Source of the DNA: Anaerolineaceae bacterium
Lineage (GTDB): Bacteria; Chloroflexota; Anaerolineae; JAAYZQ01
Assembly: GCA_012514775.1 (NCBI GenBank)
Contig: JAAYZQ010000261.1
Coordinates: 1-33,799, forward strand
Reading direction: 5' to 3'
Length of the DNA stretch: 33,799 bases
Positions 5,532-30,397 of the stretch are shown here, in pieces (position 1 is the first letter of the stretch; each line of letters begins with the position of its first letter). A model generated the notes under the pieces. It was not told the DNA's origin. It ran no database searches and was given only the letters and a program-made list of their open reading frames with translations. The translations under genes and the position numbers were made by a program.

Positions 5532-5566
5532 TTCGTCCACCCCTCGCTGTCTGATCGGACCGACTC

Positions 5567-7555: not shown

Positions 7556-7623
7556 GAAATGCCCGCGGCAGGGATGGACTCCTGGCGCGTGCTCGCGCCC
7601 ATGACAAAAGAGGGCGCGGCTGA

Positions 7624-7651: not shown

Positions 7652-7679
7652 GCCACGTGACGGGCAGGGCCGCCCACCC

Positions 7680-9056: not shown

Positions 9057-9077
9057 GGCACATCCCCCTTTGTGCTG

Positions 9078-9106
9078 ATTATAACATGCCCGAACCGGCC
9101 GGTCAA
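9078..9106 (-). promoter_or_regulatory. sigma70 promoter for the CHAT gene
   Basis: On the minus strand, TTGACC (9106-9101) and TATAAT (9083-9078) are 17 nt apart, only about 21 nt from the ATG at 9056. The CHAT gene is therefore likely transcribed independently of the dehydrogenase that ends at 9130. Confidence 0.78.
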
Positions 9107-9129
9107 CAGGCACGGAACCTGCCCTGGCG

Positions 9130-16162: not shown

Positions 16163-17010
16163 CGTGCCACCTCCACCGCCTCAGCCCCGGGCGCCAGGAG
16201 GCGCATGGCCTCCTGCCACTGCTCTTCGCTGATGGGCGCGTTGTGAAACTGGAACTGGCCCTCCATAAAGGGTACGCCCTTGCCCTTCACGGTGTTGGCC
16301 ACGATGGCCACCGGGCGACCCTTCACCTTTTCGGCCTCGTCCAGGGCGTTGCAGATCTGCCGCAGATCGTGCCCGTCTACGGTCATCGCCTCCCAGCCAA
16401 AGGCCCGCCACCGGTCGGTCAGGGGCTCCAGGGGCTTGGCCTCGTCGACCAGGCCCTGGCTCTTGAGCCGGTTGCGGTCCACGATGGCCACCAGGTTGTC
16501 CAGCCTCTGGGCGGCAGTGCCCATGGCCGCCTCCCAGACCTGTCCCTCGTGCAGCTCGCCGTCGCCCAGCAGGCAGTAGACGCGGATGGACAGGCCGCGA
16601 ATGCGGGCCGCCATGGCAATGCCGTTGGCGAAGGAGAGGCCCTGGCCCAGGGAGCCGGTGCAGGCCTCCAGCCCGGGCGTCATGCAAGCATTGGGATGCC
16701 CCTGCAAGATGCTGCCCAGGCGCTTGAGCGTTGCCAGCGACTCCATGGGGATCACACCCAACCTTGCCAGCGCCGCGTATTGCGTCGGCACGGTATGTCC
16801 CTTGCTCATCACGAAGCGGTCGCGCTCCTCCCAGCGTGGATTCGCCGGGTCGTAGCGCATCTTGTAAAAGTAGAGGGCGGTGACCAGCTCCACAATGGAC
16901 AGGGAGCCACCGAAGTGGTGGGCCTTGCCCGCGCCCATCATGCGCACCACCTGGTACCGCAGGTCGCGGGCGATGTCCTCCAGTTTGGCCAGCTTTTGGT
17001 CGTCGATCAT
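16159..17010 (-). CDS. Transketolase, N-terminal (ThDP-binding) subunit
   Basis: The protein has 283 residues from the ATG at 17010, with AAGGGAG 9 nt before it; the frame is open to 17067 but that part overlaps the previous gene. It carries the diphosphate-binding domain of transketolase: GKAHHFGGSLSIVELVTALYF near residue 30, SKGHTVPTQYAAL, GSLGQGLSFANG, and the Mg/ThDP motif GDGELHEGQVWEA ending in VAIVDRNRLKSQG. The C-terminus has NTVKGKGVPFMEG. Together with the next gene it transfers a two-carbon ketol group between sugars or sugar phosphates. It lies 53 bases after the zinc dehydrogenase, consistent with the same transcript. Confidence 0.95.
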   Translation of the reverse strand: MIDDQKLAKLEDIARDLRYQVVRMMGAGKAHHFGGSLSIVELVTALYFYKMRYDPANPRWEERDRFVMSKGHTVPTQYAALARLGVIPMESLATLKRLGSILQGHPNACMTPGLEACTGSLGQGLSFANGIAMAARIRGLSIRVYCLLGDGELHEGQVWEAAMGTAAQRLDNLVAIVDRNRLKSQGLVDEAKPLEPLTDRWRAFGWEAMTVDGHDLRQICNALDEAEKVKGRPVAIVANTVKGKGVPFMEGQFQFHNAPISEEQWQEAMRLLAPGAEAVEVAR

Positions 17011-17063
17011 CCTCGTGTCTCCCTTCTCAGTGTGCCGCGGCCATCCCCAAAAGGCCCGCCGCA

Positions 17064-18101
17064 TCACACCGGGAACAGCAGGATCTTGTGGGCCTCCAGG
17101 GCCTCCAGCTTCTCAAAGGCCTCCTGCCAGCGGGTGATGGGCCAGATCTCGCTCACCAGGGCCTCGGTCTCGATCTTTTTCTGGCGCATCAGCTCCAGGC
17201 AGGTCTCCCACGTGGTCCACGTGTGGGAAAAGGCCCCCTGATAGGTGATGACCTTGGCCACGATCTCGTCCATGGTGAGGTTGACGGGCTGCAGCGACCA
17301 GCCGACCTTGGTCACCTGGCCGTTGCGCCGCACCAGCTCCAGCGACTGCTTGATGGCCGGCGGGACGCCGGCGCAGTCGATGACCAGGTGCGCCCCCAGC
17401 CCATCGCCGATGCCGCGCAGAACCTCGGCCGGGTCTTGCTCCGTGACGTCAAGGGCGAGGTCCGCGCCCAGCTTCCTGGCCAGCTCCAGCCGTTTCCGAT
17501 CGCGCGGGGTGCCGGTGACGATGAGGGTTCCGGCGCCCGCCAGGCGCGCGACCTGGAGGGCGAACAAGCCCACGGGCCCCGGGCCGATGACCACCACGGT
17601 GTCGCCCGGGTTGACGTGGCTCTTTTCCGCCACGGCGTTGTAGGCCACGCAGATGGGCTCGGTCATGGCCGACGTCTCGTAGCCGACGCCCTGGGGCAGG
17701 TGGTGAAGCCTCTGATACCTGGCCTTCACGTACTGGGTAAAGGCCCCGTCCACGGCAAAGCCAAAGGCCCGGCGCTCGGGGCAAACGTTGTACGCTCCCG
17801 AGCGGCACAGGGCGCACACGCCGCACGTCTCGGCTGCCGTTTCGCAGGTGACGCGGTCTCCGACGGCAAAGCCCTCGACCCGCTCTCCGACCTGGACGAC
17901 CTCGCCGGACCATTCGTGCCCCAGGACGACCGGGGGGCGGGCGAGGAGCGTGAGCTGGCCGTGATACATGTGCGGCTCGCTGCCGCAGATGCCGCAGTAC
18001 TTGACCTCCACCAGGCACTCCTCGGGACCGATGGCCGGCACCGGCACGTCGCGCAGCTCGACGCACCGGTCCCCTTTGTCGTACAACACTACTGCTTTCA
18101 T
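17064..18101 (-). CDS. Zinc-dependent medium-chain dehydrogenase (sorbitol/threonine dehydrogenase-like), copy 1
   Basis: The protein has 345 residues. It oxidises an alcohol with NAD(P). Catalytic zinc ligands are C39 in CGICGSE, H62-E63 in GHEWSG and a TEP glutamate near 150. The structural zinc cluster is complete at C93, C96, C99 and C107. The Rossmann motif is VVVIGPGPVGL. The normal CGxCGSD motif is CGSE here. It is closely similar to the dehydrogenase at 24573-25604, with identical zinc-ligand spacing and the same VTCET segment, so the two are paralogues in one regulon. The ATG at 18101 follows AAAGGA and lies 11 bases after the SDR stop. Confidence 0.93.
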   Translation of the reverse strand: MKAVVLYDKGDRCVELRDVPVPAIGPEECLVEVKYCGICGSEPHMYHGQLTLLARPPVVLGHEWSGEVVQVGERVEGFAVGDRVTCETAAETCGVCALCRSGAYNVCPERRAFGFAVDGAFTQYVKARYQRLHHLPQGVGYETSAMTEPICVAYNAVAEKSHVNPGDTVVVIGPGPVGLFALQVARLAGAGTLIVTGTPRDRKRLELARKLGADLALDVTEQDPAEVLRGIGDGLGAHLVIDCAGVPPAIKQSLELVRRNGQVTKVGWSLQPVNLTMDEIVAKVITYQGAFSHTWTTWETCLELMRQKKIETEALVSEIWPITRWQEAFEKLEALEAHKILLFPV

Positions 18102-18112
18102 GGCGAATCCTT

Positions 18113-18916
18113 TCAGGCCGCCGTCCAGCCGCCGTCGACGTAGAGCGTCTGCCCGGTCACAAAATCAGAGGCACGGGAGGTGAGAAAGATGACTGCGCCA
18201 AAGAGATCCCAGATCTGGCCCACGCGGCCCATGGGGATGCGGCTCAACACCCATTCCCTGGTCTTGTCATCGTCGAGCATGTAGGCATTAAGGTCGGTCC
18301 GGATAAAGGTGGGGGCGATGGCATTGACGTTGATGCCCTCCTGCGCCCACTCGATGGCCAGCGACTTGGTCAGGAGGTTGATGGCGCCCTTGCTGGCGGG
18401 ATAGGCCGGGTCGTTGGCCCGGCCCTGCAGGCCCCGCACCGACGACATATTCACGATCTTGTGCACGGCCGTCCCGTTCGCGGCCAGCATGGCCCTGCCG
18501 ACCTCTTTGCAGCAGATGAATGTGCCCCGCAGGTTGACGTCAAGGATTTGCTGCCACTCTTCGACGGGGAACTCGATCGTCGGCTTCAGGCTCACAATGC
18601 CTGCCGAGTTGATGAGTATGTCGACGTGCCCCATCTCGTCCACCACGCGCCGGACCATCGCCTGGACGCTGGCCTCGTCCGTCACGTCGGCGGCGACGGG
18701 CAGGGCGCGGCGCCCCAGGGAGTGGATCTCCTCGGCTACAACCTCCAGGTCCGACAGGGTGCGGCTCACCGGGGCCACGTCGGCGCCCGCCGCAGCCAGG
18801 GCAAGGGCCATGCCGCGTCCCAGCCCCCGGCTGCCGCCCGTCACCACTGCCACCCGCCCCGTCAGGGAGAACATGGAGAGCACTCCTTCCAGCTTTTCCC
18901 TGGGAATCTGTTCCAT
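18113..18916 (-). CDS. Short-chain dehydrogenase/reductase, copy 1
   Basis: The protein has 267 residues. The cofactor motif is TGGSRGLGRG near residue 27, the NAG-type motif is INSAGIVS, and the catalytic serine-tyrosine-lysine set is represented by NMSSVRGL and AYPASKGA. It ends with the standard C-terminal FVTGQTLYVDGGWTA. It would oxidise or reduce a secondary alcohol, as in gluconate 5-dehydrogenase-like SDRs. The ATG at 18916 is preferred over the TTG at 18919 because AGGAGG lies 6-7 nt before it. It sits 11 bases before the zinc dehydrogenase, so a two-step oxidation pair is likely. Confidence 0.93.
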   Translation of the reverse strand: MEQIPREKLEGVLSMFSLTGRVAVVTGGSRGLGRGMALALAAAGADVAPVSRTLSDLEVVAEEIHSLGRRALPVAADVTDEASVQAMVRRVVDEMGHVDILINSAGIVSLKPTIEFPVEEWQQILDVNLRGTFICCKEVGRAMLAANGTAVHKIVNMSSVRGLQGRANDPAYPASKGAINLLTKSLAIEWAQEGINVNAIAPTFIRTDLNAYMLDDDKTREWVLSRIPMGRVGQIWDLFGAVIFLTSRASDFVTGQTLYVDGGWTAA

Positions 18917-18959
18917 CAATTACCTCCTGCCAATTTCTACTCAGGTCCTACGAACAAGA

Positions 18960-19013: not shown

Positions 19014-19721
19014 TCAGTCTTCCTCTTCCAGGAGGGCGACAGCGCGGATGGGCGAGCCACTGCCGCGCCGGATGCGCAGCGGGAAGCCCATGTAGCGAAA
19101 GCGCTTGCCGGCCACCGGCCGCAGGTCGCCCAGGTTCTCGGTGTTCAGCGTCTGCATCTCGCGGCAGACCTGGTGCGCGGGATAGCTCGTCGTCCCGGCG
19201 CGATCGTGGCTGGGCGCGTCCTGCCCGATGTTGACCACACCCTGGCCGTAGATGAACTCGGCGGCCTCGCGGCCCAGCCCGGGATACTCTGTCAGCCAGT
19301 CGGGCGTGCCCCACGTCCGCACATAGTGGCCGGAATAGAGCAACACCGTGTCGCCCTTCTTGATCTCCAGGCCGTGCTTGTCCAGGGCCTCCTTGATCAT
19401 CTCTACCGTGTACTCGGTGCGGGGCGGGATGTGAGACAGATCGAGGCAGATCGCATCGGTGTAGAACCAATCCAGGGGCAGCTCGTCGATGGAGGGCGCC
19501 CCCGGAGTAGGATCGATGTGGCTGATCGAGTCGGTGTGCGTCGTGCCGTGGGTGCTCATTGCGATCTTTTCAGCCGTGTAGGAATAGTTCTCGGTAAAAC
19601 GTCCCGATTTGACCGTCTCCTCGTGGGTCGCCACGACGTCGACGCGGGTTTCGGGATGACCGGGCCACACTGGTGCCCCGGTATAGATCTCCTGGCTCAA
19701 GTCTATCAGCTTGAAGGCCAT
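19014..19721 (-). CDS. Cyclase / kynurenine-formamidase-like metal hydrolase
   Basis: The protein has 235 residues in the cyclase family (PF04199 type), which includes kynurenine formamidase and isatin hydrolase. The metal-binding signature HGTTHTDSISH is at 58-68 (H58, H62, D64, H68), in place of the usual HxGTHxDxPxH, so the third position is a Ser-Ile instead of Asp-x-Pro. Family members hydrolyse amide bonds or lactone-like rings, so this step may open a ring formed upstream. The ATG at 19721 has GAGG 5 nt before it; the frame continues further upstream without a start signal. It is the sixth gene of the array. Confidence 0.9.
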   Translation of the reverse strand: MAFKLIDLSQEIYTGAPVWPGHPETRVDVVATHEETVKSGRFTENYSYTAEKIAMSTHGTTHTDSISHIDPTPGAPSIDELPLDWFYTDAICLDLSHIPPRTEYTVEMIKEALDKHGLEIKKGDTVLLYSGHYVRTWGTPDWLTEYPGLGREAAEFIYGQGVVNIGQDAPSHDRAGTTSYPAHQVCREMQTLNTENLGDLRPVAGKRFRYMGFPLRIRRGSGSPIRAVALLEEED

Positions 19722-19920
19722 GCGTTCCTCACTTTCAACGTTTCCAGATGCTCCGGCCCCCGGCCCGGCCCTGTGGGCGTAGCGTGAGCCTCGCCCAGGC
19801 CACGGCATCCTGTTGCCCCGGCGTGCCAGATGGGCCGCGCCGGTTACCACGGGCTTGCAATTCCCCCATGGCGCGGCGCCATCCTGCCCGCGACGTCAAG
19901 AGGAGTGGTGCCGGCGGCCG

Positions 19921-19941
19921 CAGACGGCTTCAGGCCGTCTG
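19921..19941 (-). other. Stem-loop overlapping the VOC stop codon
   Basis: CAGACGGC-TTCAG-GCCGTCTG is a perfect 8-bp stem; its loop contains the stop codon of the VOC gene (19930-19932). No T-run follows. It marks the 3' end of the VOC cistron within the array. The remaining 200 bases up to the cyclase start contain nothing else I can assign except a 15-bp palindrome at 19868-19882. Confidence 0.45.
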
Positions 19942-20370
19942 GATGATCTCGAGCGATACACCATCCGGATCGAAAAAGTAGGTCCAGCGCCAGCCGGCCA
20001 TGGGACCGGCCGGGATGGTGGCCGGCGGCGCCGTAAAGCGCACGCCGTGGTCCACCATGCGCCGGTACACCTCGTCTATGTTCTCCACCTGAAAGGCAAT
20101 GTGCATGGCCCCCACGTCGTTGACCTGGCGGTCGTAGGGCCGCCCCCCGGCGGTGACGTATTCGATCAGCTCGACCCGCGCCTCGCCCGCTTTCAGGATA
20201 GCCAGCTTGACCTTGGCCCCGGCGATGCCCAGGGCCCGCGAGCGGTCATCCTGGCTGCGCTCGCTCTCCTCGGTAAAGAGCAGCTCCAGCCCCAGAAAGT
20301 CGCGATAGAACGCGATGGACCGCTCCAGGTTGCTGACGGTGATGCAGGTGTGATGGACGCCTCGGATCAT
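19930..20370 (-). CDS. VOC-family (glyoxalase/dioxygenase-fold) protein
   Basis: The protein has 146 residues, a single two-module VOC fold. It begins with the canonical GVHHTCITVSNLERSIAFYRDFLG and ends WTYFFDPDGVSLEIIQ. Metal ligands expected from the fold are visible: H7, a glutamate in ARVELIEY (E67), H90 in AMHIAFQV and E141. Such proteins include glyoxalase I, methylmalonyl-CoA epimerase and extradiol dioxygenases; a lactoylglutathione-lyase or epimerase-like activity is plausible. The ATG at 20370 follows GAGGGGG by 4 nt. It sits between the molybdenum hydroxylase genes and the cyclase, flanked by stem-loops on both sides. Confidence 0.9.
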   Translation of the reverse strand: MIRGVHHTCITVSNLERSIAFYRDFLGLELLFTEESERSQDDRSRALGIAGAKVKLAILKAGEARVELIEYVTAGGRPYDRQVNDVGAMHIAFQVENIDEVYRRMVDHGVRFTAPPATIPAGPMAGWRWTYFFDPDGVSLEIIQTA

Positions 20371-20481: not shown

Positions 20482-21486
20482 TCAGGCAGCCTCCAGCGCT
20501 CTCAAGATGTCCTCGCGCGATACCGGATAGTGATCGAACCAGACGCCGATGGCATCATAGATGGCATGCGCAATGGCAGGCGGCGGCGCGTTGGTCGAGC
20601 CTTCCGAAAAGCCCTTGGCTCCCTTGACGCCGGCCGGATGAGGCACTTCGACAAAACCCCACTCCAGCTTTTCCGGATAGTCCTCGAACGTCGGCACGGC
20701 ATAGTCCGACAGGTTGTTGGGCGCCCAGTCCGGATTGGGGTAGTAAGGGAAGGCGTTTTCGATGAGCGACGTCCCCATGCCACACTGGACGCCGCCGTTG
20801 ATCTGCTGGCGAACAAGCAGCGGATTGACCGCCTTGCCGACTTCCCAGACCTGGGTCATGCTGAGGACTGCCACCTCGCCGGTCTCGGTATCGACTTCGA
20901 CCTCGCAGGTGCAGCACCCGAAAGAGATGGCACCCACGGCGGGCATGGCCCCCGTCTCCAGATCGTGGGGATGGAACCTGTCGGGCTGCCAGGCGCCGGT
21001 GCCGACCAACAGCGCCGGGTCGGCGCCCCCGCCAAAGGCCGCGGCCCCACCCACCTGTGCCAGGGTCAGGGACCGGTCGGGCACGCCCTTGACCGATACC
21101 TTGCCCTGGGAATACTCCAGGTCGTCGGGATTCGCCTCCAGCAGGTCGGCGGCATACTCCTTGATCTTTTTCTGAAGGTCCTGGGCTGCGTTCTCTACCG
21201 CGTGGGGATCGATTAGCGTGACGCGGCTGGCAAAGCTGCCCAGGCTCAGCGGAGCAAAGTCGTCCGCAAAGTTGCTGGCAAAAACGTGCTCGATGGGCAC
21301 TTCCATCAGGTCGGCGCAGAACTGGCGCAGGATGGTTGTCGAGCCCTGGCCGAGGTCGACGGCGCCCACCAGCAGAACCAGGGTGCCGTCGGGCTTGAGC
21401 TGGATCGCTGCATTGCTCGGATCGCCCGCACCCTTGTTGCCGGTGGGATGCAGAACGAGAGCCATTCCTTTACCTTTTTTCTTCAT
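20482..21486 (-). CDS. Molybdenum hydroxylase, molybdopterin subunit, C-terminal half
   Basis: The protein has 334 residues and matches the second molybdopterin-binding domain (MoCoBD_2) of xanthine dehydrogenase-type large subunits. Visible features are GAVDLGQGSTTILRQ near residue 41, SLGSFASRVT near 81, and GVKGAKGFSEGSTNAPPPAIAHAI, in which E295 is the expected catalytic glutamate beside molybdenum. It starts cleanly: the ATG at 21486 is 5 nt after the stop of the N-terminal half, with GGGAGG just before that stop. A full-length subunit would be one chain of about 770 residues. The same division occurs in Eubacterium barkeri nicotinate dehydrogenase (NdhL/NdhM), so this may be a natural four-subunit enzyme rather than a broken gene. 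Confidence 0.92.
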   Translation of the reverse strand: MKKKGKGMALVLHPTGNKGAGDPSNAAIQLKPDGTLVLLVGAVDLGQGSTTILRQFCADLMEVPIEHVFASNFADDFAPLSLGSFASRVTLIDPHAVENAAQDLQKKIKEYAADLLEANPDDLEYSQGKVSVKGVPDRSLTLAQVGGAAAFGGGADPALLVGTGAWQPDRFHPHDLETGAMPAVGAISFGCCTCEVEVDTETGEVAVLSMTQVWEVGKAVNPLLVRQQINGGVQCGMGTSLIENAFPYYPNPDWAPNNLSDYAVPTFEDYPEKLEWGFVEVPHPAGVKGAKGFSEGSTNAPPPAIAHAIYDAIGVWFDHYPVSREDILRALEAA

Positions 21487-21491: not shown

Positions 21492-22796
21492 TTACCTCCC
21501 ACGTGAGCTCATGGCCAGGAGATGATCCGGCAACTGGATTCCGGACATCTCTGCCGTCGCCTTCATGGCTTCCAGGGCACCCGCTCCCCGGACCACGTAC
21601 CGCGACGCACCGATGTCACCATCACGCCAGGCATTGATAAAGCGCAGCTCCCAGGGATCCATGCCCAGTGCCTGGGCGACCTTGTGCATCTGCAGCTCCA
21701 TGGGGAACTGGCCATTCATGATGGTAAAGCCGCGCATCGAGCTGGAGCCGGCCTTGTTGGTCAGCACGCACTTGCCCTCGATGCGGATGTTGGGAATGTG
21801 GTACGGGCCACAAGCGAACATGCTACACTTCTCGACGCCGTAGGGCGAAAAGCCGCCGTAGGCGCCGGCATCGTGCCAGACATTGATATGGTTGGCCACG
21901 ATGCGGCCGTCCTTCTTGAAGCCGGTCTTGTAGTCAAAGATGAACACACCGCGCTTGGTGGAGTAGAGCAGGTCTTCGCGCCGGCTCATGCGATACTTGA
22001 CGGGCCGGCGGAACTTGAGCGCCGCCAGGCCGGCATGGTGATCGGCGTGGATGTGGTTCTTGCCGCCGAATCCGCCGCCCACGACGCCGCCCACATAGCG
22101 GATCCTGCTCATGGGCAGGTCAAAGATGGCCGCAAGCTGTCCCAACTGGAAGTAGAGGCACTGGCTGTGGGTGTGGATCACCAGGCGCTCGGCGCTGTCA
22201 AAGTAGGCGACCGAGACCATGGGCTCCATGGACGCGTGGTCCTGCTCGCCCGTCTCGTAATGCCCCTCGACGACGTCGTCGGCCTCTTTGAAGCCGGCAT
22301 CCGCGTCGCCGATGTACATCACGCGGGTCGTGACCCCCGGGGCATACTCCCAGAGGTTGCTCTTGAGGCCGGGACGCACCAGGGGAGCATCGGGCTCCAT
22401 GGCCTTGAACATGTCAAAGACCGGCTCCTGCTCCTCGATGTCCAGCTTGACCTTCTCGATGGCCTCCATGCAGGTGTCTTCGTCCACGGCCACCACGACG
22501 GCCAAGACCTCGCCCTTGTAGCTGATGGCGTCCTTCACCATCACCGGTTGGTCGCCACATGCTCCAAAGAGCTTGGCACCGGGAATGTCATCGTACGTGA
22601 CAAAGCCGACTACGCCGGGTGTAGCCTTGGCGGCCGAAAAGTCCATCCCGCGCAGAATGCCCTTGTGGACGGGGCTGCGCACGGCCTTGGCGTAGAGCAT
22701 GCCCGGGAGCACAAAGTCATCCACGAATTTGGTCACGCCTGTCACCTGGCCGAGACCGTCGTAGCGTGGCATTGCCATACCAACATATTCGGTCAT
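21492..22796 (-). CDS. Molybdenum hydroxylase, molybdopterin subunit, N-terminal half
   Basis: The protein has 434 residues from the ATG at 22796, with AAGGAG 8 nt upstream. It contains the a/b hammerhead domain (starting GQVTGVTKFVDDFVLPGMLYAKAVRS) and the first molybdopterin-binding domain. Motifs: the ETGEQDHASMEPMVSV segment near residue 181, the molybdopterin GGGFGGK at 240-246 and SSMRGFTIMNGQF at 352-364. It ends at TAA after LLAMSSRGR, in the linker that normally joins the two cofactor domains. With the next gene it makes a complete large subunit of 768 residues. The enzyme hydroxylates a heterocycle or oxidises an aldehyde using water as oxygen source; which one is not clear. Confidence 0.93.
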   Translation of the reverse strand: MTEYVGMAMPRYDGLGQVTGVTKFVDDFVLPGMLYAKAVRSPVHKGILRGMDFSAAKATPGVVGFVTYDDIPGAKLFGACGDQPVMVKDAISYKGEVLAVVVAVDEDTCMEAIEKVKLDIEEQEPVFDMFKAMEPDAPLVRPGLKSNLWEYAPGVTTRVMYIGDADAGFKEADDVVEGHYETGEQDHASMEPMVSVAYFDSAERLVIHTHSQCLYFQLGQLAAIFDLPMSRIRYVGGVVGGGFGGKNHIHADHHAGLAALKFRRPVKYRMSRREDLLYSTKRGVFIFDYKTGFKKDGRIVANHINVWHDAGAYGGFSPYGVEKCSMFACGPYHIPNIRIEGKCVLTNKAGSSSMRGFTIMNGQFPMELQMHKVAQALGMDPWELRFINAWRDGDIGASRYVVRGAGALEAMKATAEMSGIQLPDHLLAMSSRGR

Positions 22797-22810
22797 TGTT
22801 CCTACTCCTT

Positions 22811-23275
22811 CTACTTGCCAGCAGCCACTGCCTGGATAGCTTCGATGACTTCTTCGTAGCTTCCGCAGCGACACAGGTTGCCCGCCATGTGCTCCCGAAT
22901 CTCCTGGCGGGAAGGATTGGGATTGTGATCCAGCAATGCCTTGGCCGACATGAGCATGCCGGGGGTGCAAAAGCCACACTGAAAGGCACCGTGCTCGTGG
23001 AAGGCCTTTTGCAGAGGATGAAGTTCGCCGTCGGGGCTCAGGCCCTCGGTCGTCAGGACTTGTTTGCCCTGCACGGTCAAAGCGATGGTCAGACAGGAGC
23101 GTGTCGGCTCACCGTCGATCAGGACGGTGCAGGCACCGCAGTCGCCATCGTCGCAGCCACGCTTGGGGCTGGTCACACCCAGCTTTTCCCGCAGGACGTC
23201 CAGGAGTGTCTCGGTTGGGGTCACGACGACGTCCACCGGCGAGCCATTCAGGGTGAACGATAGAATCTGCTTCAT
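22811..23275 (-). CDS. Molybdenum hydroxylase, 2x[2Fe-2S] small subunit
   Basis: The protein has 154 residues, the normal length. The plant-type ferredoxin cluster is bound by CDDGDCGAC plus the cysteine in TRSC (C41, C46, C49, C61), and the second cluster by QCGFCTPG and LCRCG. It passes electrons from molybdenum to the FAD subunit. The ATG at 23275 is preceded by GAGGAGG. It lies 18 bases after the FAD subunit and 14 bases before the molybdopterin subunit, so the subunits are stoichiometrically coupled. Confidence 0.96.
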   Translation of the reverse strand: MKQILSFTLNGSPVDVVVTPTETLLDVLREKLGVTSPKRGCDDGDCGACTVLIDGEPTRSCLTIALTVQGKQVLTTEGLSPDGELHPLQKAFHEHGAFQCGFCTPGMLMSAKALLDHNPNPSRQEIREHMAGNLCRCGSYEEVIEAIQAVAAGK

Positions 23276-23293: not shown

Positions 23294-24145
23294 CTATCTC
23301 TGGATGCCGGCCGCCTGGGCCAATGCCCGGGCGACGAGGGCCTTGCCGGCCTTCTGCCGGTACCAGGCGGTGGCTCGTTGATCGTCGATGGGGCTCGTCT
23401 CGGCGATGGCCTGGGCGGCGCATTCCTCGATGGCGGCCTGGTCGAGGGCCTTGCCCTTGATGAGCGCCTCGGCCTTTTTGCAGCGCAGGGGTGTCGGGGC
23501 CATGGAGCCCATCACGATGCGCGCGTCCTGGCAGACGTTGCCGGCCATCACCAGTCGCACCGCGGCGGAGGCAATGGAGCAGGTTTGCGCTTTGCGAAGG
23601 CCCACCTTCTGGTAGGCAGTGTTGCCGGCAGCCAGCGGCACGCGCAGCTCGACGATGAGTTCGTCGGGTTTGCGGACCGTCTTTTGCGGCCCGGTAAAGA
23701 ACTCGGCCACGGGCACTACACGCTCACCCGCGGCATTGGCCAGGACGACTTCCGCGTCCATGACCATGAGGGGAGGCAGCAGGTCGCCGGCCGGCGAGCC
23801 GGTCCCCACGTTGCCGCCGATGGTGGCGGCGGTGCGGACAGCCGGGCTGCTGTGCTTCTTGATCGCCTGGAGTAGAACGCCAAACTTCTGGGCAATGACC
23901 TCGCTGGCCAGGAGATGCGCCAGGGTCGTGCCGGCACCAATGATCAGCTTGCCATTCTCCTCTTTGATATAGTCCAGAGCCAACCCGCCGATGTACAAAA
24001 GGGCGGAGGGCTTGATCTCGTAGTAGTTCAGCGCGGGAACGAGATCCGTGCCACCAGCCAGGACTGCCATCTTCTCGCCATGTTCCGCGAGGAGCCTGAC
24101 CGCTTCGCCGATTTCTGTTGGAGCGAAATAGCCAACGTCTCTCAT
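23294..24145 (-). CDS. Molybdenum hydroxylase, FAD-binding subunit
   Basis: The protein has 283 residues, the size of CoxM/XdhB/NdhF-type subunits. FAD-binding motifs are AGGTDLVPALN near residue 30 and TIGGNVGTGSPAGDLLPPL near 107. The C-terminal CO dehydrogenase flavoprotein domain begins near YQKVGLRKAQTCSIASAA. No 4Fe-4S insertion, as in 4-hydroxybenzoyl-CoA reductase, is present. It is the first gene of the ten-gene array; its ATG at 24145 has GGGAGG 8 nt upstream and is preceded by a leader of about 225 nt carrying a GntR operator. Confidence 0.95.
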   Translation of the reverse strand: MRDVGYFAPTEIGEAVRLLAEHGEKMAVLAGGTDLVPALNYYEIKPSALLYIGGLALDYIKEENGKLIIGAGTTLAHLLASEVIAQKFGVLLQAIKKHSSPAVRTAATIGGNVGTGSPAGDLLPPLMVMDAEVVLANAAGERVVPVAEFFTGPQKTVRKPDELIVELRVPLAAGNTAYQKVGLRKAQTCSIASAAVRLVMAGNVCQDARIVMGSMAPTPLRCKKAEALIKGKALDQAAIEECAAQAIAETSPIDDQRATAWYRQKAGKALVARALAQAAGIQR

Positions 24146-24353
24146 AGGGTATACCTCCCTTTTCTCCTTAAGCAGGGACTAGGTTCGACTCAGCACGAGG
24201 TCTTGCGGTTAAACGGACGTTTGCGGCCTCACCCCCTTTCTCCAGTCCACGGCCCTGGCGACCAGTTCCCCGGCACGATTCTCGCCCGGACTGGTTGCCG
24301 GCGAGTGGCAGGCAAGAACAGGCTCGTAGGATGGATTTCTCCACGACATTGAT

Positions 24354-24368
24354 AACCGATAATCGATT
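24354..24368. promoter_or_regulatory. GntR operator A (hydroxylase array)
   Basis: AACCGATAATCGATT matches 14 of 15 positions of the perfect palindrome at 26782-26796. It lies 10 nt downstream of the -10 box of the array promoter, across the predicted transcription start, so bound protein should block initiation. Confidence 0.8.
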
Positions 24369-24378
24369 GCGCGAGTGG

Positions 24379-24407
24379 ATTCTACCACAGCCACCGGATG
24401 GTGTCAA
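24379..24407 (-). promoter_or_regulatory. sigma70 promoter for the ten-gene hydroxylase-transketolase array
   Basis: On the minus strand, TTGACA (24407-24402) and TAGAAT (24384-24379) are 17 nt apart, a near-consensus promoter. Operator A starts 10 nt after the -10 box. Confidence 0.85.
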
Positions 24408-24451
24408 ATCGGAGCGGCGCGTGGTGAGGGCATCGCTCCGGCGGCTCGCGG

Positions 24452-24480
24452 TTGACAGCCCGCGCCAAGTGGCGTACAAT
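24452..24480 (+). promoter_or_regulatory. sigma70 promoter for the plus-strand zinc dehydrogenase
   Basis: TTGACA (24452-24457) and TACAAT (24475-24480) have a 17-nt spacer. The start near 24487 leaves an 86-nt leader to the ATG at 24573. No operator copy overlaps it; operator A is about 84 bases upstream. Confidence 0.8.
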
Positions 24481-24572
24481 CCATTGGCCGCCGTCCTGCA
24501 GGGCAGGCTGAGGGCTTGCCCCGAACACGTGGGCAGCCTATCCAACAACGGGACAGTGCGAGGAGGGACGCG

Positions 24573-25604
24573 ATGAAAGCCGTCGTCAAGTATGCAGCGG
24601 GCGAGGGGAACGTCGAGCTCCGGGACGTGGCCGAGCCGGTGCCCGGCCCGAAACAGGTCAAGGTCGAGGTCAAAGCCGCCGGCGTGTGCGGCTCGGACCT
24701 GCACATCTACCACGACGAGATTGCCATTCCCGTGCACCCACCGGTGATCATGGGCCACGAGTTCGCCGGGGTCGTGGTCGCCGTGGGCGAGGGCGTGGAG
24801 GGCGTGCAACCGGGTGACCGGGTGACCTGCGAGACGACGGCCTGGTTCTGTGGGCGCTGCCTGGCCTGTCGCGCCGGGCACTATAACATGTGCGCCGAGC
24901 GCAAGGTCGTGGGCTATGCGATTGACGGCTGCTTTGCTCGCTATTGCCTCGTCCACGAGAGACAGGTCCACCTCCTCCCCGAAGGCGTAGATTTTGTCGC
25001 CGGGGCCCTGACCGAGCCCCTGGCTTGCTGCGTTCACGCCGTGCTGGAGCTGACGTCCGTCACCGCCGGCGACCTGGTGGTCGTTGCCGGCCCGGGCTCC
25101 ATCGGCCTGCTCTGCATGCAAATTGCCCGCGCAGCCGGCGCCACGGTCATCATCGCAGGCACGACGAGCGACGCCGAGCGTCTGGCCCTGGCAAAGCGCC
25201 TCGGCGCCAGCATGGCCGTCGATCTCACCAGCCAGGATCTGCCCCAGATCGTCGTCGGCCTGACCGCCGGACAGGGCGCCGACATCTACTTCGAGTGCTC
25301 GGGCGCCCCTGCCGCCGCCCGCCAGGGGCTGACCCTCACCCGCCGGGGCGGCCAGTACACCCAGGTGGGCCTCTTTCCCGGGCCTTTTGAGCTGCCCTTT
25401 GACACCATCGCCTATAGGGAGCTGCGCGTCACCGGCTCCCTGGGGCAGCGCTCCAGCTCCTGGCGCCGCGGCCTGGCACTCCTGGGCCAGGGCCTGGTCG
25501 ATACCCGCTCCCTGGTGAGCCATATCCTGCCCCTCGACTCCTGGCAGGAAGCCTTCCGCCTGGCCGAGTCTCGCCAGGGGCTCAAGATCGTCCTGGAGCC
25601 CTAG
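24573..25604 (+). CDS. Zinc-dependent medium-chain dehydrogenase, copy 2
   Basis: The protein has 343 residues. The ATG at 24573 is preceded by AGGAGGG. Catalytic zinc ligands are C39 in CGSDLH, H62-E63 in GHEFAG and a TEP glutamate near 148; structural zinc cysteines are C93, C96, C99 and C107. The Rossmann motif is VVVAGPGSIGL. It shares long stretches with the dehydrogenase at 17064-18101 (MKAVV start, VTCET segment, CR.GHYN.C.ER pattern), so it arose by duplication. The two probably oxidise related alcohols in one pathway. Its stop codon overlaps the stop of the convergent SDR gene within a single CTAG (25601-25604), leaving no room for a terminator. Confidence 0.94.
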   Translation: MKAVVKYAAGEGNVELRDVAEPVPGPKQVKVEVKAAGVCGSDLHIYHDEIAIPVHPPVIMGHEFAGVVVAVGEGVEGVQPGDRVTCETTAWFCGRCLACRAGHYNMCAERKVVGYAIDGCFARYCLVHERQVHLLPEGVDFVAGALTEPLACCVHAVLELTSVTAGDLVVVAGPGSIGLLCMQIARAAGATVIIAGTTSDAERLALAKRLGASMAVDLTSQDLPQIVVGLTAGQGADIYFECSGAPAAARQGLTLTRRGGQYTQVGLFPGPFELPFDTIAYRELRVTGSLGQRSSSWRRGLALLGQGLVDTRSLVSHILPLDSWQEAFRLAESRQGLKIVLEP

Positions 25605-26347
25605 TCGATAAGCAGGCCGCCGTTGACGTCGACGATCTCGCCGGTGATAAAGCTCGCTTCGTCCGAGACGAGAAAGACGACCGCGCCGGCCACGTCCTCG
25701 GGCGTTCCCAGCCGGCCCAGGGGCGTGCGCAGGCGAAATGCCTCGTTCTCCTCGTCCGAGGCGAGGTGGATCATGGGCGTATCGATGCGGCCGGGGGCCA
25801 CCGCGTTGGCGGTGATGCCGTGGGGCCCTAGTTCCCGGGCAAGCTGCTTGGTCAGGCAGATGACGCCGGCCTTGGAGACAGCATAGTGCGCCCCCGACAG
25901 CGTGCCACCGCTCTTGCCCGCCGACGAGGCCATGCTCACGATGGTGCCGCTCCCCTGCCGCTTCATGGTCGGGATGACCGCCTGGCAGCACAGGAAGGCG
26001 CCCTTGAGGTTCACGGCCAGCACCCGATCCCACTGCTCCTCGCTGATGGCTTCAATGGGCAGCACCTCGTAGATCCCGGCATTGTTGACCAGGATGTCGA
26101 TCCGGCCCCACCGTGCCAGAACCTGTCCGACGGCCTCCTGGATCTGCTCCTTGCGTGTCACGTCCACAGACAGGGCCAGCATCTCGCCACCCCGGGTGCG
26201 CACCTGGCCCACCAGGTCGTCGAGCTGGACAAGGTCCAGGTCCAACGCCGCGACCCGCGCCCCTTCTCGGGCAAGGGCCACGGCGATGGCGCGTCCGATG
26301 CCCCGCGCCGCGCCGGTGACGATGGCCACCCTGTCTTTCAGCCTCAT
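25601..26347 (-). CDS. Short-chain dehydrogenase/reductase, copy 2
   Basis: The protein has 248 residues, typical of FabG/gluconate-5-dehydrogenase-type SDRs. The cofactor motif is TGAARGIGRA near residue 11, then NNAGIYEV, catalytic MASSAGKSG and YAVSKAG, and the C-terminal FITGEIVDVNGGLLID. It begins only 4 nt after the cupin stop, so the two are co-transcribed from the GntR-controlled promoter. It is a paralogue in function of the SDR at 18113-18916. Its end shares a CTAG with the end of the convergent zinc dehydrogenase gene. Confidence 0.94.
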   Translation of the reverse strand: MRLKDRVAIVTGAARGIGRAIAVALAREGARVAALDLDLVQLDDLVGQVRTRGGEMLALSVDVTRKEQIQEAVGQVLARWGRIDILVNNAGIYEVLPIEAISEEQWDRVLAVNLKGAFLCCQAVIPTMKRQGSGTIVSMASSAGKSGGTLSGAHYAVSKAGVICLTKQLARELGPHGITANAVAPGRIDTPMIHLASDEENEAFRLRTPLGRLGTPEDVAGAVVFLVSDEASFITGEIVDVNGGLLID

Positions 26348-26351
26348 GGCC

Positions 26352-26732
26352 TCAGTCCTTGAGCAGGTGGTCGCGGCGATATTTCTCCGGAATGAACGGC
26401 GGCGCCACGGCCGAGACCACCTTCAGGATCTCGTCGCCGTCGTTGATCAACTGGTGTACGCTCTTGGGCGGGCAAAAGACCGTCGCGCCCGGCTCCAACG
26501 GCATCTCCTCGTCGTCGACGCGGATGCGGCCGCGGCCCTGAACGCAGTAAAAGACCTCTTCCTGATCCTCGTGGGCATGGGCATTGCTGGTAAAACCCGG
26601 GTCGACGGAGCTGGTTCCCAGCCAGAGGTACTTGCTGCCCATGTTCTCCGGCGTCACCAGGTGGCGGATCACGCGCTGGTTCGGAGGGCCGATGCGATCA
26701 CCCTCCACGTCCTGCTCACGGATATAATGCAT
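26352..26732 (-). CDS. Single-domain cupin
   Basis: The protein has 126 residues from the ATG at 26732, which is preceded by a strong AAAGGAGG; the open frame continues to 26816 but crosses the promoter. The cupin motif 1 metal ligands are H52 and H54 with a glutamate at 58/59 in NAHAHEDQEEVFYCVQGRG, and motif 2 contributes H93 in PPKSVHQLIN. Small cupins of this kind are isomerases, dioxygenases or sugar-binding helper proteins in catabolic operons. It is followed after 4 nt by an SDR gene and controlled by operator B. Confidence 0.9.
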   Translation of the reverse strand: MHYIREQDVEGDRIGPPNQRVIRHLVTPENMGSKYLWLGTSSVDPGFTSNAHAHEDQEEVFYCVQGRGRIRVDDEEMPLEPGATVFCPPKSVHQLINDGDEILKVVSAVAPPFIPEKYRRDHLLKD

Positions 26733-26781
26733 CTCGTTCCTCCTTTGAAGGATTTTACCGGCCGAAACGGCGCCAGAAGTA

Positions 26782-26796
26782 AATCGATAATCGATT
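26782..26796. promoter_or_regulatory. GntR operator B (cupin-SDR operon)
   Basis: AATCGATAATCGATT is a perfect 15-bp palindrome about a central A. It starts 8 nt downstream of the cupin-operon -10 box, on the predicted transcription start, and is the best-conserved of three copies. Confidence 0.88.
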
Positions 26797-26804
26797 GCAA
26801 CTTT

Positions 26805-26832
26805 ATTATACTCCATGCCACCCTGCTGTCAA
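26805..26832 (-). promoter_or_regulatory. Consensus sigma70 promoter for the cupin-SDR operon
   Basis: On the minus strand, TTGACA (26832-26827) and TATAAT (26810-26805) both match consensus exactly with a 16-nt spacer. Such a strong promoter is consistent with control by a repressor bound at operator B. Confidence 0.88.
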
Positions 26833-26864
26833 ATTGGCTGCCCCGCCCTGCCGATAGCGCATCC

Positions 26865-26892
26865 TTGACAAGGCCGGAAAAGCTGGTAAAAT
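26865..26892 (+). promoter_or_regulatory. sigma70 promoter for the gntR-lpd-MFS operon
   Basis: TTGACA (26865-26870) and TAAAAT (26887-26892) have a 16-nt spacer. The start would be near 26899, overlapping operator C, which points to autoregulation. The leader to the ATG at 27022 is about 120 nt. Confidence 0.82.
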
Positions 26893-26901
26893 ATTGGCAA
26901 G

Positions 26902-26916
26902 AATCGATAATCGTTT
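26902..26916. promoter_or_regulatory. GntR operator C (autoregulation)
   Basis: AATCGATAATCGTTT matches 14 of 15 positions of operator B and lies 9 nt downstream of the regulator's own -10 box. Spacing to the promoter is the same as at operators A and B. Confidence 0.83.
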
Positions 26917-27021: not shown

Positions 27022-27702
27022 ATGAATGGGATGAACACCCAGCTAGACATTGAGACGGAAAACAAGCACGTTCCCCGCGTCGTACTCAGCGACCGGGTGA
27101 AGCAATACATCGTCGAAGCCGTCCTCAGCGGCGAGCTAAAGCCAGGAGATCGCATCGTCGAGAATGCCATGGCCCGCCTCCTGGGTGTCAGCCAGGCACC
27201 CGTGCGCGAAGCCATCCGCGACCTGGTCCTCCTTGGCTTCCTGGAGACCGAGCCCTACAAGGGAACCTCTGTGCGCTCGTTTACCCCCGAAGAGCTGTGG
27301 GAGACGTACATGGTGCGCGCTGCCCTGGAGTCGCTGGCGACGCGCCTGGCAGCCACGCGGCTGACCGAGGACGACGCCGCCACCCTGCAGCGAATCCTCG
27401 ATTCCATGATGGAAGCGGCTCGCAACCAGGATCGGAACCGCGTGGTGCAGTTGGACAATGCCTTTCACGAGGCCATCCTGAAGTTCTCCCGGAATCAGAC
27501 CCTATACCAGTTGTGGAAGAGCCTCGAGTATGGAATCTGGAGCATTGTTACCTACCGCAAGTCGGACCTCGACCCCGAGTACCTGGCCGCCCGCCACGAA
27601 GAGCTTCTGGAAGCCCTCAAGAGCGGCGATCCAGAGCGGGCGACGCGCGTCATGCAGAACCACATCGAGGAAATGGGCAAGCCCCCCGAAGGCGGGGAAT
27701 AG
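27022..27702 (+). CDS. GntR-family transcriptional regulator, FCD subfamily
   Basis: The protein has 226 residues. The N-terminal winged helix spans about residues 20-85 (RVKQYIVEAVLSGELKPGDRIVE, then LGVSQAPVREAIRDLVLLGFLE, the recognition-helix signature of GntR). The C-terminal FCD domain has the metal-ligand set D145, H149 (DNAFHEAI), H192 (RHEELLEAL) and H214 (QNHIEEM), which binds a small carboxylate or sugar acid effector in this family. The start may be the ATG at 27022 or the one at 27031. It most likely binds the AATCGATAATCGATT sites at 24354, 26782 and 26902, including its own promoter, and releases when the pathway substrate is present (inference). Confidence 0.95.
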   Translation: MNGMNTQLDIETENKHVPRVVLSDRVKQYIVEAVLSGELKPGDRIVENAMARLLGVSQAPVREAIRDLVLLGFLETEPYKGTSVRSFTPEELWETYMVRAALESLATRLAATRLTEDDAATLQRILDSMMEAARNQDRNRVVQLDNAFHEAILKFSRNQTLYQLWKSLEYGIWSIVTYRKSDLDPEYLAARHEELLEALKSGDPERATRVMQNHIEEMGKPPEGGE

Positions 27703-27774: not shown

Positions 27775-29184
27775 ATGAGCCAAGAACGCTACGACGTGAC
27801 CGTCATCGGCGGAGGACCGGGGGGCTACGTAGCCGCCATCCGCGCCGTACAGCTCGGCTTGAAAGTTGCCCTCGTGGAGAAGGAGAACCTGGGCGGTGTC
27901 TGCCTGAACTGGGGCTGCGTCCCCACCAAGGCGCTGCTGCGCAATGCTGAGGTCATTTCTCTCCTGGGCAAGGGCAAGGAGTTTGGCTTTCGCCTGGAAG
28001 GGGGCTTTCAGGCCGACTATGGCGCCGCCGTCGACCGCAGCCGCCAGGTATCGGAGCGGCTGGTCAAGGGCGTCAGCGTCCTCATGCGCGACAACGACGT
28101 CGAGGTCGTGGAGGGCACTGCCTCGCTGCAGGCCGCCGGCGAGGCCCTGCGTGTGGACGTGGCCCTCAACGCCGGCGGCAGCCGCACCCTGGAGACGCGC
28201 AACGTGATCCTGGCCACCGGCGGCCGGGCCCGCTCCGTGCCCGGCATCGTGCCCGACGGCGAGCGAGTCCTGACCTACCGCGAGGCCATCGTCCTGCGCG
28301 ACCTGCCCGCTTCGGCGGTCATTGTCGGCGCCGGCCCCATCGGCATGGAGTTTGCCCAGGTGTGGCAGTCCTACGGCTGCCAGGTCACCGTCGTGGAGAT
28401 GCTGCCCCGAGCCCTGCCCCTGGAGGACGAGGAGGTCAGCAACGTCGTGACCCGTGGCTTTAAGCGACAGAAGGTCAAGTTGCTGACCGGCACCCGCCTG
28501 GAAGGACTGGAGATCACGGAGGGCGGGGTGCGCGTGCGCGCCTCGAACAAGAAGGGCGAGCAGATCCTCGAGGCCGAGCGGGTCCTCGTGGCCATCGGCA
28601 TCCAGCCCAACAGCGAGAACCTGGGGCTGGAGGCCGCGGGTGTGCGCGTCGAGCGCGGCTTTGTGCAGGTGGACGACGCCATGCGCACCAACGTGCCGGG
28701 TATCTGCGCCATCGGAGACGTGACGGGCAAGCTGGCCCTGGCCCACGTCGCCTCGGCCCAGGGCATTGTCGCCGCCGAGTCCATCGCCGGCGTCGAGACC
28801 CGCCGTCTCAACTACGAGACCATGCCGCGCTGCACCTACTGCCAGCCACAAGTCGGCAGCTTTGGGCTCAGCGAGGCCCAGGCCGCCGAGCGAGGCTACG
28901 AGTTCAAGGTCGGCAAGTTCTTTTTCCTGGCCAACGGCAAGGCCCTGGCCCTGGACGAGCGGGACGGATTTGTCAAGATCATTGCCGAGGTGAACAGCGG
29001 CGAGATCCTGGGCGCCCACATGGTCGGCCCCGAGGTGACAGAGCTGCTGCCCGAGCTGGCGCTGGCCCGCACCTGGGAGCTGACCCCCGACGAGATTGCC
29101 CGCACGGTCCACGCCCATCCAACGCTGAGCGAAGCCGTGATGGAGGCAGCCCACGGGGTCTTTGGCAAGGCCATTCATGCCTGA
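27775..29184 (+). CDS. lpdA: Dihydrolipoamide dehydrogenase (E3)
   Basis: The protein has 469 residues. FAD binding: VIGGGPGGYVAAI (10-22). The redox disulfide is C43 and C48 in GGVCLNWGCVPTK. NAD-binding motif IVGAGPIGMEFAQ is near residue 176, and the C-terminal His-Glu dyad is in HAHPTLSEAVMEA. All catalytic parts are intact. The ATG at 27775 follows AGGAG. It reoxidises protein-bound dihydrolipoamide in 2-oxoacid dehydrogenase or glycine-cleavage complexes, but no E1, E2 or lipoyl protein is in the window, so its partner must be elsewhere or it may act on another disulfide. It is probably in one operon with gntR (72 bases upstream) and the following transporter. Confidence 0.94.
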   Translation: MSQERYDVTVIGGGPGGYVAAIRAVQLGLKVALVEKENLGGVCLNWGCVPTKALLRNAEVISLLGKGKEFGFRLEGGFQADYGAAVDRSRQVSERLVKGVSVLMRDNDVEVVEGTASLQAAGEALRVDVALNAGGSRTLETRNVILATGGRARSVPGIVPDGERVLTYREAIVLRDLPASAVIVGAGPIGMEFAQVWQSYGCQVTVVEMLPRALPLEDEEVSNVVTRGFKRQKVKLLTGTRLEGLEITEGGVRVRASNKKGEQILEAERVLVAIGIQPNSENLGLEAAGVRVERGFVQVDDAMRTNVPGICAIGDVTGKLALAHVASAQGIVAAESIAGVETRRLNYETMPRCTYCQPQVGSFGLSEAQAAERGYEFKVGKFFFLANGKALALDERDGFVKIIAEVNSGEILGAHMVGPEVTELLPELALARTWELTPDEIARTVHAHPTLSEAVMEAAHGVFGKAIHA

Positions 29185-30397
29185 GAACCCCGCCGGGGAA
29201 AAACTGGCCGCGAGCCAGCCCCCAGCGCCGGTCACCGGTGGCTGGCTCGCGGCCGGCAGCCGCCGAACCCTGCTGGGCATTTACATCGCTGTCTCTTTTC
29301 TGTACGGGCTGTGCCTGTACGTCTACATGCCGACGCTGCCCACTTACGTCCAGAGCAAGAGCCAGGACCTGGCGCAGGTGGGGGTCATCCTGGCCCAGTA
29401 CGGTCTGTGGCAGGCCATCGTCCGCTGGCCCCTGGGCATGGCCGCCGACTGGGTAGGCCGGCGCAAGCCCTTTATCTTTGCCGGGCTGCTCATCGCTGCC
29501 GTGGCCGCCTGGATGACCGGCGCCGCCCAGGACGCCAATGGGCTGCTCGTCGGCCGGGCCCTCACCGGCGTGGCAGCCAGCACCTGGGTGCCCATGACCG
29601 TCCTCTTTAGCAGCCTCTTTCCACCGCGCGAGGCGGTGCGCGCCACATCGATCCTCACCGCCACGATCTCGGTGGGGCGCATGGTGGGCACCAGCAGCAC
29701 GGGCACGCTGAACGGCATCGGCGGCTATCCCCTGGCCTTTTACGTCGCCGCCGGGGTCGCGGCTGCCGGGGCGCTCGTCCTGCTCCTTGCCCGCGAGACG
29801 CCCCACCCACCCCGGAGGCCCTCACTCCAGGCGGCGGGCCGCATCCTTACCCGCCGCGACGTGCTGCTGCCGTCGGTCCTATCGGCTGTGGGCCAGTACG
29901 CCACCTGGGCGGTGCCCTTTGGCTTTCTGCCCCTCGTCGCCGACCAGCTCGGCGCCACGCCCGTGGAGCAGAGCATGTTCCTCACCTTTAACATCGTCCT
30001 GGTCACGCTGGGCGGTCTGGCCGCGGCGGCGCTGGCCAACCGCATCGGCGCCGGCAGGATGGTGCGCGTCAGCTTTGTCCTCCTGGCCATCGGCATCGCC
30101 ATCGGCGCCCTGGCCGGCTCCATCGCCGTGCTCTGGATCGCGCACCTGTTCATCGGCGTTGCCCTGGGCATCAGCTACCCGGTCCTCATGGGCCTGAGCA
30201 TTCGCGAGGTGGGCGAGACCGAGCGCAGCACCGCCATGGGCCTGCACCAGGCCGTGTACGCCGCCGGCATGTTTGCCGGGCCCTGGCTGAGCGGCATCCT
30301 GGCCGATGCCATGGGCTTGCGGCCCATGCTGGGCGTCACCGCTTTTGCCTGCCTGGCCGTGGGCACGGTGCTGGCCGGCTGGTGCGACGACCGATAG
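29177..30397 (+). CDS. MFS transporter
   Basis: The protein has 406 residues with about 12 membrane helices. The signature loop between helices 2 and 3 reads RWPLGMAADWVGRRKPF, and the start of helix 1 is LLGIYIAVSFLYGLCLYVYMPTLPTY. The N-terminal 35 residues are hydrophilic. The ATG at 29177 lies inside the last codons of lpdA (8-nt overlap) and has no strong ribosome-binding site, so it depends on translational coupling; an earlier in-frame TTG at 29162 is less likely. As the last gene of the gntR operon it may import the pathway substrate or export a product. Confidence 0.92.
   Translation: MPENPAGEKLAASQPPAPVTGGWLAAGSRRTLLGIYIAVSFLYGLCLYVYMPTLPTYVQSKSQDLAQVGVILAQYGLWQAIVRWPLGMAADWVGRRKPFIFAGLLIAAVAAWMTGAAQDANGLLVGRALTGVAASTWVPMTVLFSSLFPPREAVRATSILTATISVGRMVGTSSTGTLNGIGGYPLAFYVAAGVAAAGALVLLLARETPHPPRRPSLQAAGRILTRRDVLLPSVLSAVGQYATWAVPFGFLPLVADQLGATPVEQSMFLTFNIVLVTLGGLAAAALANRIGAGRMVRVSFVLLAIGIAIGALAGSIAVLWIAHLFIGVALGISYPVLMGLSIREVGETERSTAMGLHQAVYAAGMFAGPWLSGILADAMGLRPMLGVTAFACLAVGTVLAGWCDDR

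Follow-up and report, generated by a model that had tools for sequence, protein, structure and literature searches.

Candidate operators built of 7-bp-phased ATCGAT units at three promoters beside an FCD-type GntR regulator gene of an Anaerolineaceae bacterium

FCD-type GntR regulators and the Anaerolineaceae locus

FadR, LldR and PdhR belong to the FadR/FCD subfamily of GntR regulators, which feature a winged helix-turn-helix (wHTH) domain and an FCD domain, recognize an odd-centred palindrome, and have sites at their own promoter and at adjoining catabolic genes. The metal or effector site of this subfamily consists of one Asp and three His. The FadR-type operator consensus is described in PMC4494728 as TKGT/ACMA, which is usual and not obligatory, with NanR and BioR as exceptions, and Arg-45 in the recognition helix of FadR makes the main Arg-G base contact (PMC4494728). 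AphS and BphS, GntR-type repressors in the catabolism of phenol and biphenyl, are described as having the operator AwATATCGATATwT at multiple sites (PMC6449761). The window analysed here is the whole 33,799-nucleotide stretch of contig JAAYZQ010000261.1 (assembly GCA_012514775.1) from an Anaerolineaceae bacterium. It encodes an FCD-type GntR regulator, called GntR 27022 after its start coordinate, and has three copies of a 15-bp palindrome at the promoters of a ten-gene molybdenum (Mo)-hydroxylase array, a cupin-short-chain dehydrogenase (SDR) operon and a gntR-lpd-MFS operon. Sequence comparison suggests that GntR 27022 is very probably a local autoregulated repressor that reads these three operators and thereby allows the three operons to be induced together.

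A scan of the window located an exact match to AATCGATAATCGATT at operator O2, while the core of operator O1, AACCGATAATCGATT, and operator O3, AATCGATAATCGTTT, each differ from it by one mismatch (coordinates in Table 1). The palindrome is odd, with 7-1-7 symmetry and a central A/T, AATCGAT-W-ATCGATT. At up to three mismatches these three places (6 strand-matches) are the only ones in the 33,799 bases; the shuffled window gives a mean of 0.13 strand-matches, and 6 was reached in 0 of 100 shuffles. A neutral scan for promoters across 15.0-30.7 kb gave four that match at least 11 of the 12 consensus bases, and an operator is located at three of the four, starting 10 nt (hydroxylase), 8 nt (cupin-SDR) and 9 nt (gntR) past the -10. 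The sequence-only reading had claimed one perfect and two singly mismatched copies, had placed them 8-10 nt past the -10 of near-consensus promoters, and had assigned the 27022 protein to the FCD-GntR regulators. The scan confirms all three copies and their distances, and matches to PF00392 and PF07729 show that the assignment is correct.

In the proposed mechanism, a GntR 27022 dimer would bind ATCGAT-W-ATCGAT, a 7-1-7 palindrome with a self-palindromic half-site, and the bound protein, located just past the -10 of three strong promoters, would block RNA polymerase. An intermediate, probably a carboxylate, would then bind the FCD domain and release the block, and the hydroxylase array, the cupin-SDR genes and gntR-lpd-MFS would be induced jointly. 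Binding by GntR 27022 could in principle activate these promoters, or do both, and BphR1 of KF707 is described as a GntR-family activator (PMC10282184); the operators, however, start 8-10 nt past the -10 and lie over the start site, which is the classical repressor position, and an activating or dual role is decidedly improbable.

GntR 27022 features an N-terminal wHTH domain (PF00392, 51.8 bits against a cut-off of 27) and a C-terminal FCD domain (PF07729, 103.5 bits against 24.3). It is the sole transcription factor among 30 open reading frames (ORFs) that were scanned with Pfam, from a listing of 152 ORFs of at least 80 amino acids, many of them mutually overlapping. Residues D143, H147, H190 and H212 are invariant in 23 sequences and correspond to the metal ligands of the subfamily by position only. 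The nearest solved structure, PDB 7xp0, which we take to be MpaR of Pseudomonas aeruginosa, matches over both domains (E 5e-24); unlike in GntR 27022, its helix begins SRGPLREA with the canonical Arg. The best NCBIfam model is TIGR03338 (PhnR of Burkholderia) with 123.2 bits, and membership was rejected because this score is far under the cut-off of 271.5; PRK11414 was likewise rejected on score.

The domain architecture, the odd-centred palindrome, and the sites at its own promoter and at adjoining catabolic genes resemble those of FadR, LldR and PdhR. The recognition sequence differs: the operator is TCGATNATCGA, and the three sites have ATCGATNATCGAT in place of TKGT/ACMA. Position 38 of the helix-turn-helix (HTH), which aligns by eye with FadR Arg-45 and is usually, not obligatorily, Arg, is Gln in GntR 27022, whose helix begins SQAP, and Gln is also found in 22 relatives. 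The residue at the FadR Thr-46 position is Ala in the same by-eye alignment. GntR 27022 resembles AphS and BphS, compared by operator only, in an ATCGAT-cored palindrome that is present in several copies; the operator given for those repressors in PMC6449761 has only one ATCGAT core, flanked by ATAT, whereas here there are 7-bp-phased units that lack ATAT flanks. AphS and BphS already exemplify an ATCGAT core among GntR-family operators, and such a core is hence not new. A search of the open-licence literature, which leaves aside RegPrecise and subscription papers, did not find ATCGATAATCGAT, a paper with GntR, FCD and ATCGAT together, or the phased array and its link to SQ-type helices; the matches listed for related operator strings look unrelated by title.

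Conservation of the operators and the phased ATCGAT array

The nearest relatives that were compared are G001 (Anaerolineae isolate B4-07, GntR 74% identical) and G007 (72% identical). Both genomes retain the cluster, and in each of them all three promoters (hydroxylase, cupin and gntR) feature the operator, with two mismatches in the gntR-promoter copy of G007. In the alignments the TTGACA hexamer, the TA...T hexamer and the operator line up, and the other intergenic DNA is poorly conserved; by alignment, each of the three promoters thus shows a phylogenetic footprint. A third genome, G002, retains the operator at the hydroxylase promoter. A match by chance or to a general genomic motif, such as a methylation or uptake signal, would fit the short, AT-rich core and the finding of at least one match (up to one mismatch) in 137 of 396 Anaerolineae genomes. 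This explanation is contradicted by the shuffled windows, by the conservation of three orthologous promoters, and by the distribution in the 4.5-Mb genome of G001, where 4 of the 5 places with up to one mismatch lie inside the homologous cluster, and its probability is close to negligible.

Additional operator copies in relatives occur behind near-consensus promoters before genes of 2-oxoacid dehydrogenase complexes, namely E1-alpha and E1-beta-like genes in G001 (L105:13350) and E2-E1 genes at locus L002 (5880). For such a complex, the E3 partner would be supplied by the window's lpd, in the gntR operon. Among the relatives with GntR proteins 61-63% identical, which have operator-bearing promoters at L104 451/11544, L151 4874 and L005 2209, these promoters precede a gene for a PEP-utiliser mobile domain protein in both G005 and G045 and, in G005, an SDR gene whose product is 38% identical to SDR1. 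The regulon content thus appears to change, since these promoters precede other genes.

Operator O1 consists of three units, ATTGAT-A-ACCGAT-A-ATCGAT (24348-24367), and the third unit, or extended O1 block, also aligns in G001, G007 and G002. The phasing was determined on 50 sites (33 upstream sites of relatives and 17 hand-listed sites), which are phylogenetically not all independent. A further ATCGAT with at least 4 of 6 matches lies exactly 7 bp away at 28 of the 50 sites, as compared with 11 sites for offset 14 and 0-7 sites for each of 16 further offsets in the range 3-20. The operator is therefore an array in which the self-palindrome ATCGAT recurs with a 7-bp phase. The FadR family is described in PMC4494728 as having weaker extra half-sites 7-12 nt from the centre; here the centre of the third unit is 10.5 nt out. 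An expectation-maximization (EM) motif model left the odd- and even-centred readings undecided because both frames overlap in a 7-bp array. It placed sites in 59 of 76 sequences, a count that was not used since the model is too permissive and several of its low scorers are noise-like.

Several additional sites were observed in the relatives. An operator-bearing promoter in G004 (L099 5377), another of the relatives with a GntR about 61-63% identical, runs off the contig. In G001, a two-mismatch site at L106 12985 precedes a second pair of cyclase and SDR genes, located on the same contig, and has no recognisable promoter; the pair is possibly a further regulon member. The 4.9-kb contig G001:C216 (L101) features near-identical operator-bearing segments at 2120 and 4523, and the L100 site (G003) precedes a short ORF as well as a protein-kinase gene. 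Four flanking ORFs scanned at L101 (two of them) and L102 (G006) gave no Pfam match, and the promoter check found no recognisable promoter at four sites (two at L101, and those at L100 and L102), which were therefore assigned to no gene.

Sites beside regulator relatives and the recognition helix

A GTDB genome scan with the 23-sequence alignment gave 80 loci, of which 75 are non-redundant after the near-duplicates L005, L047, L067, L077 and L078 were dropped. An unbiased ranking of all 6-base inverted repeats with spacers of 0-5 in the 200 bp upstream of these 75 relatives placed ATAATCGATTAT first (38/75) and ATCGATNATCGAT second (32/75), against about 1 each in shuffles; the two are two frames of one array. 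Within 300 bp upstream, ATCGATNATCGAT is present in 33 of the 75 at up to two mismatches and in 25 at up to one, whereas 200 draws of random windows from the same loci gave means of 2.44 (maximum 9) and 1.14 (maximum 5), respectively, and four control palindromes were found in 0-1 of the 75. Upstream sites occur in Paenibacillus, Clostridia, Desulfobacterota, Planctomycetota, Spirochaetota and Actinomycetota. Promoter geometry was compared at 25 sites hand-listed from Anaerolineae loci and the window (up to two mismatches, overlapping array units counted once). At 16 of them a promoter precedes the operator, its -10 ending 0-18 nt away, a placement seen for 132 of 20,000 positions drawn at random from these loci. 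A paralogue comparison covered 30 FCD loci of eight Anaerolineae genomes, taken from 45 FCD genes, and an upstream site at up to two mismatches was found in 0 of the 23 paralogues other than the 7 query orthologues. In a survey of 396 genomes sampled from the class, all 10 that encode a close GntR (E of 1e-45 or better) have a site with up to one mismatch, as compared with 127 of the other 386 (Fisher p = 2e-5).

Several findings weigh against control of these sites by GntR 27022 and its relatives. No site at up to two mismatches was found in the 300 bp upstream of 42 of the 75 relatives, including the Chloroflexota loci L002-L004 and L006-L008 (the near-duplicate L005 likewise has none directly ahead of gntR), and only 1 of 4 non-redundant relatives with at least 60% identity has a site directly upstream of gntR. 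Six of the 7 close orthologues in the paralogue comparison have no site directly upstream at up to two mismatches, G007 alone having one, and 9 of the 25 sites in the geometry set have no recognisable promoter. The 127 genomes with a match to the 15-mer and no close GntR form a considerable background, and G003, G004 and G362 have their matches at up to one mismatch on contigs other than that of gntR. In six background genomes the FCD-GntR loci that were typed (20 of 27 matches) are all non-SQ, so that some background matches are attributable to chance or to another factor. In the window, the fourth near-consensus promoter (24452-24480, plus strand) precedes the divergent zinc alcohol dehydrogenase gene ADH2 and has no overlapping operator; ADH2 is therefore not clearly a member of the regulon. 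Additionally, the genome-wide specificity assumed for the window organism is taken from its relatives. Some relatives that lack an upstream site (G005, G045 and G006) carry one elsewhere on the gntR contig, and many of the listed background matches have a G/C centre.

The co-occurrence of the 15-mer with gntR, which the sequence-only reading had put forward as a check, holds up in its rarity in G001 and its presence in all ten close-GntR genomes and is blurred by the noisy background. Its expectation that sites adjoin orthologues holds for the three promoters in G001 and G007 and mostly fails directly before gntR, where a site is found in only 1 of the 7 orthologues of the paralogue comparison. 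Its central claim, that one regulator is common to the three promoters and is most likely GntR 27022, is supported by the conserved sites and the upstream enrichment in relatives. The sites could instead belong to a regulator encoded elsewhere, for example one of the LacI family, with GntR as a mere neighbour or co-target. LacI-family operators often have a central CG, ATCGAT is CG-centred, the best unbiased palindrome is the even ATAATCGATTAT (38/75), and the six genomes described above have sites and only non-SQ FCD-GntR among the 20 typed loci. The motif, however, follows FCD-GntR genes in Chloroflexota, Bacillota, Spirochaetota, Desulfobacterota, Planctomycetota and Actinomycetota and tracks mainly one HTH class of these proteins, which makes control by another regulator improbable.

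The link between helix class and operator was determined on FCD genes from other sources, because the GTDB scan used the word QAPVREAI and most of its loci therefore share the helix by construction. This set consists of eight Anaerolineae genomes, ten varied genomes, from which 140 of 194 FCD genes were taken (60 + 80), and 13 plasmid records that were hand-picked for taxonomic spread from 40 of 1032, with helices and upstream DNA unseen beforehand. Eleven loci that were in the GTDB-scan set or were query orthologues were excluded before pooling and 5 more before the final count; 1 of 103 and 5 of 80 loci were left out as untypable or as having too little upstream sequence. Among the first 102 typed loci, which overlap the GTDB-scan set, SQ types have an upstream site at up to two mismatches in 7 of 16 cases and the remaining types in 1 of 86. 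After removal of the overlap, the proportions of SQ and remaining types with an upstream site are 3/10 and 0/151 at up to one mismatch (p = 2e-4), 4/10 and 2/151 at up to two (p = 1e-4), and 7/10 and 26/151 at up to three. The Corynebacterium plasmid locus L187 (SQAP) features an array between gntR and the next gene, immediately downstream of gntR, and the Mesorhizobium locus L237, whose helix SQGTIRAA has little likeness beyond SQ, has a one-mismatch site. No convincing site was found upstream of L318, L321 and L338, three of the 10 SQ types, and the SQ helix occurs in 0 of the 4 nearest solved structures whose alignments were compared. The association of SQ helices with ATCGAT, which rests on small numbers and is phylogenetically uncorrected, is a strong lead and not a proof.

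A recognition code for FCD-GntR proteins is put forward tentatively, with a little under an even chance of being right. S-Q-x-P helices, with Gln in place of the base-reading Arg, would read 7-bp-phased ATCGAT arrays, in which each unit may serve as a left or a right half-site. Operators could thus grow unit by unit into overlapping dimer sites, which would give graded or cooperative repression across many phyla. It is seldom possible to guess the operator of an uncharacterised GntR regulator from its protein sequence; if an SQ helix does predict ATCGAT arrays, the regulons of many unstudied FCD-GntR proteins would be readable from genomes, and a single residue would be a testable specificity switch. 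Locally, the Mo-hydroxylase array, the cupin-SDR operon and, in relatives, a 2-oxoacid dehydrogenase would be tied into one catabolic unit, which would offer a handle on the substrate.

Genes and predicted operons of the cluster

By domain content, the minus-strand array encodes a xanthine-dehydrogenase-like hydroxylase together with a glyoxalase-fold protein, a cyclase-family protein, SDR1, ADH1 and a transketolase in two parts. Strand and spacing suggest three operons, the ten-gene array, cupin-SDR2 and gntR-lpd-MFS (Table 1).

Table 1. Coordinates of the operators, promoters and genes in the window
Feature	Position	Strand	Evidence and remarks
Operator O1, hydroxylase-array promoter	24348..24368	-	Three 7-bp-phased units, core 24354-24368; 1 mismatch to 15-mer
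Hydroxylase-array promoter, TTGACA-17-TAGAAT	24379..24407	-	Promoter scan; hexamers kept in G001 and G007
Operator O2, cupin-SDR promoter	26782..26796	-	Exact 15-mer; kept in G001 and G007
Cupin-SDR promoter, TTGACA-16-TATAAT	26805..26832	-	Promoter scan
Operator O3, gntR promoter	26902..26916	+	1 mismatch to 15-mer; kept in G001 and G007
gntR-lpd-MFS promoter, TTGACA-16-TAAAAT	26865..26892	+	Promoter scan
FCD-type GntR regulator (GntR 27022)	27022..27702	+	PF00392 6.5e-14, PF07729 1.4e-29; helix start SQAPVREAI
Dihydrolipoyl dehydrogenase (lpd)	27775..29184	+	TIGR01350 545.9 bits, cut-off 408.8
MFS transporter	29162..30397	+	PF07690
Cupin protein, first gene of predicted cupin-SDR operon	26352..26732	-	PF07883 (scanned as 26352-26735; ATG from sequence)
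Short-chain dehydrogenase SDR2	25601..26347	-	PF13561
Divergent zinc alcohol dehydrogenase ADH2	24573..25604	+	Domain scan; own promoter 24452-24480
Mo-hydroxylase FAD subunit, first in ten-gene array	23294..24145	-	PF00941, PF03450
Mo-hydroxylase [2Fe-2S] subunit	22811..23275	-	PF01799, PF00111
Mo-hydroxylase large subunit part 1	21492..22979	-	PF02738, PF01315; extent of the open frame, the actual start probably being more internal
Mo-hydroxylase large subunit part 2	20482..21486	-	PF20256
Glyoxalase-fold protein	19930..20370	-	PF00903
Cyclase-family protein	19014..19850	-	PF04199
Short-chain dehydrogenase SDR1	18113..18919	-	PF13561
Zinc alcohol dehydrogenase ADH1	17064..18101	-	PF08240, PF00107
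Transketolase N-half	16159..17067	-	PF00456
Transketolase C-half	15215..16162	-	PF02779, PF02780

In the hydroxylase, the large molybdopterin subunit is encoded by two adjacent ORFs, one with the hammerhead and MoCoBD_1 domains and the other with MoCoBD_2. The MoCoBD_2 part is also a separate ORF in G001 (L105) and G007 (L149), and a sequencing error is thus unlikely to be the cause of the split. Nicotinate dehydrogenase of Eubacterium barkeri features a four-subunit layout. At L149 in G007 (1495-8983) the hydroxylase genes are present in two tandem copies with one operator-bearing promoter ahead. In the window, a leader of about 225 nt separates the predicted start site from the FAD gene (24145-24372) and aligns poorly with relatives. 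Genes for a CHAT-domain protein and a caspase-domain peptidase are located near the cluster (7680-9401 and 13122-13937).

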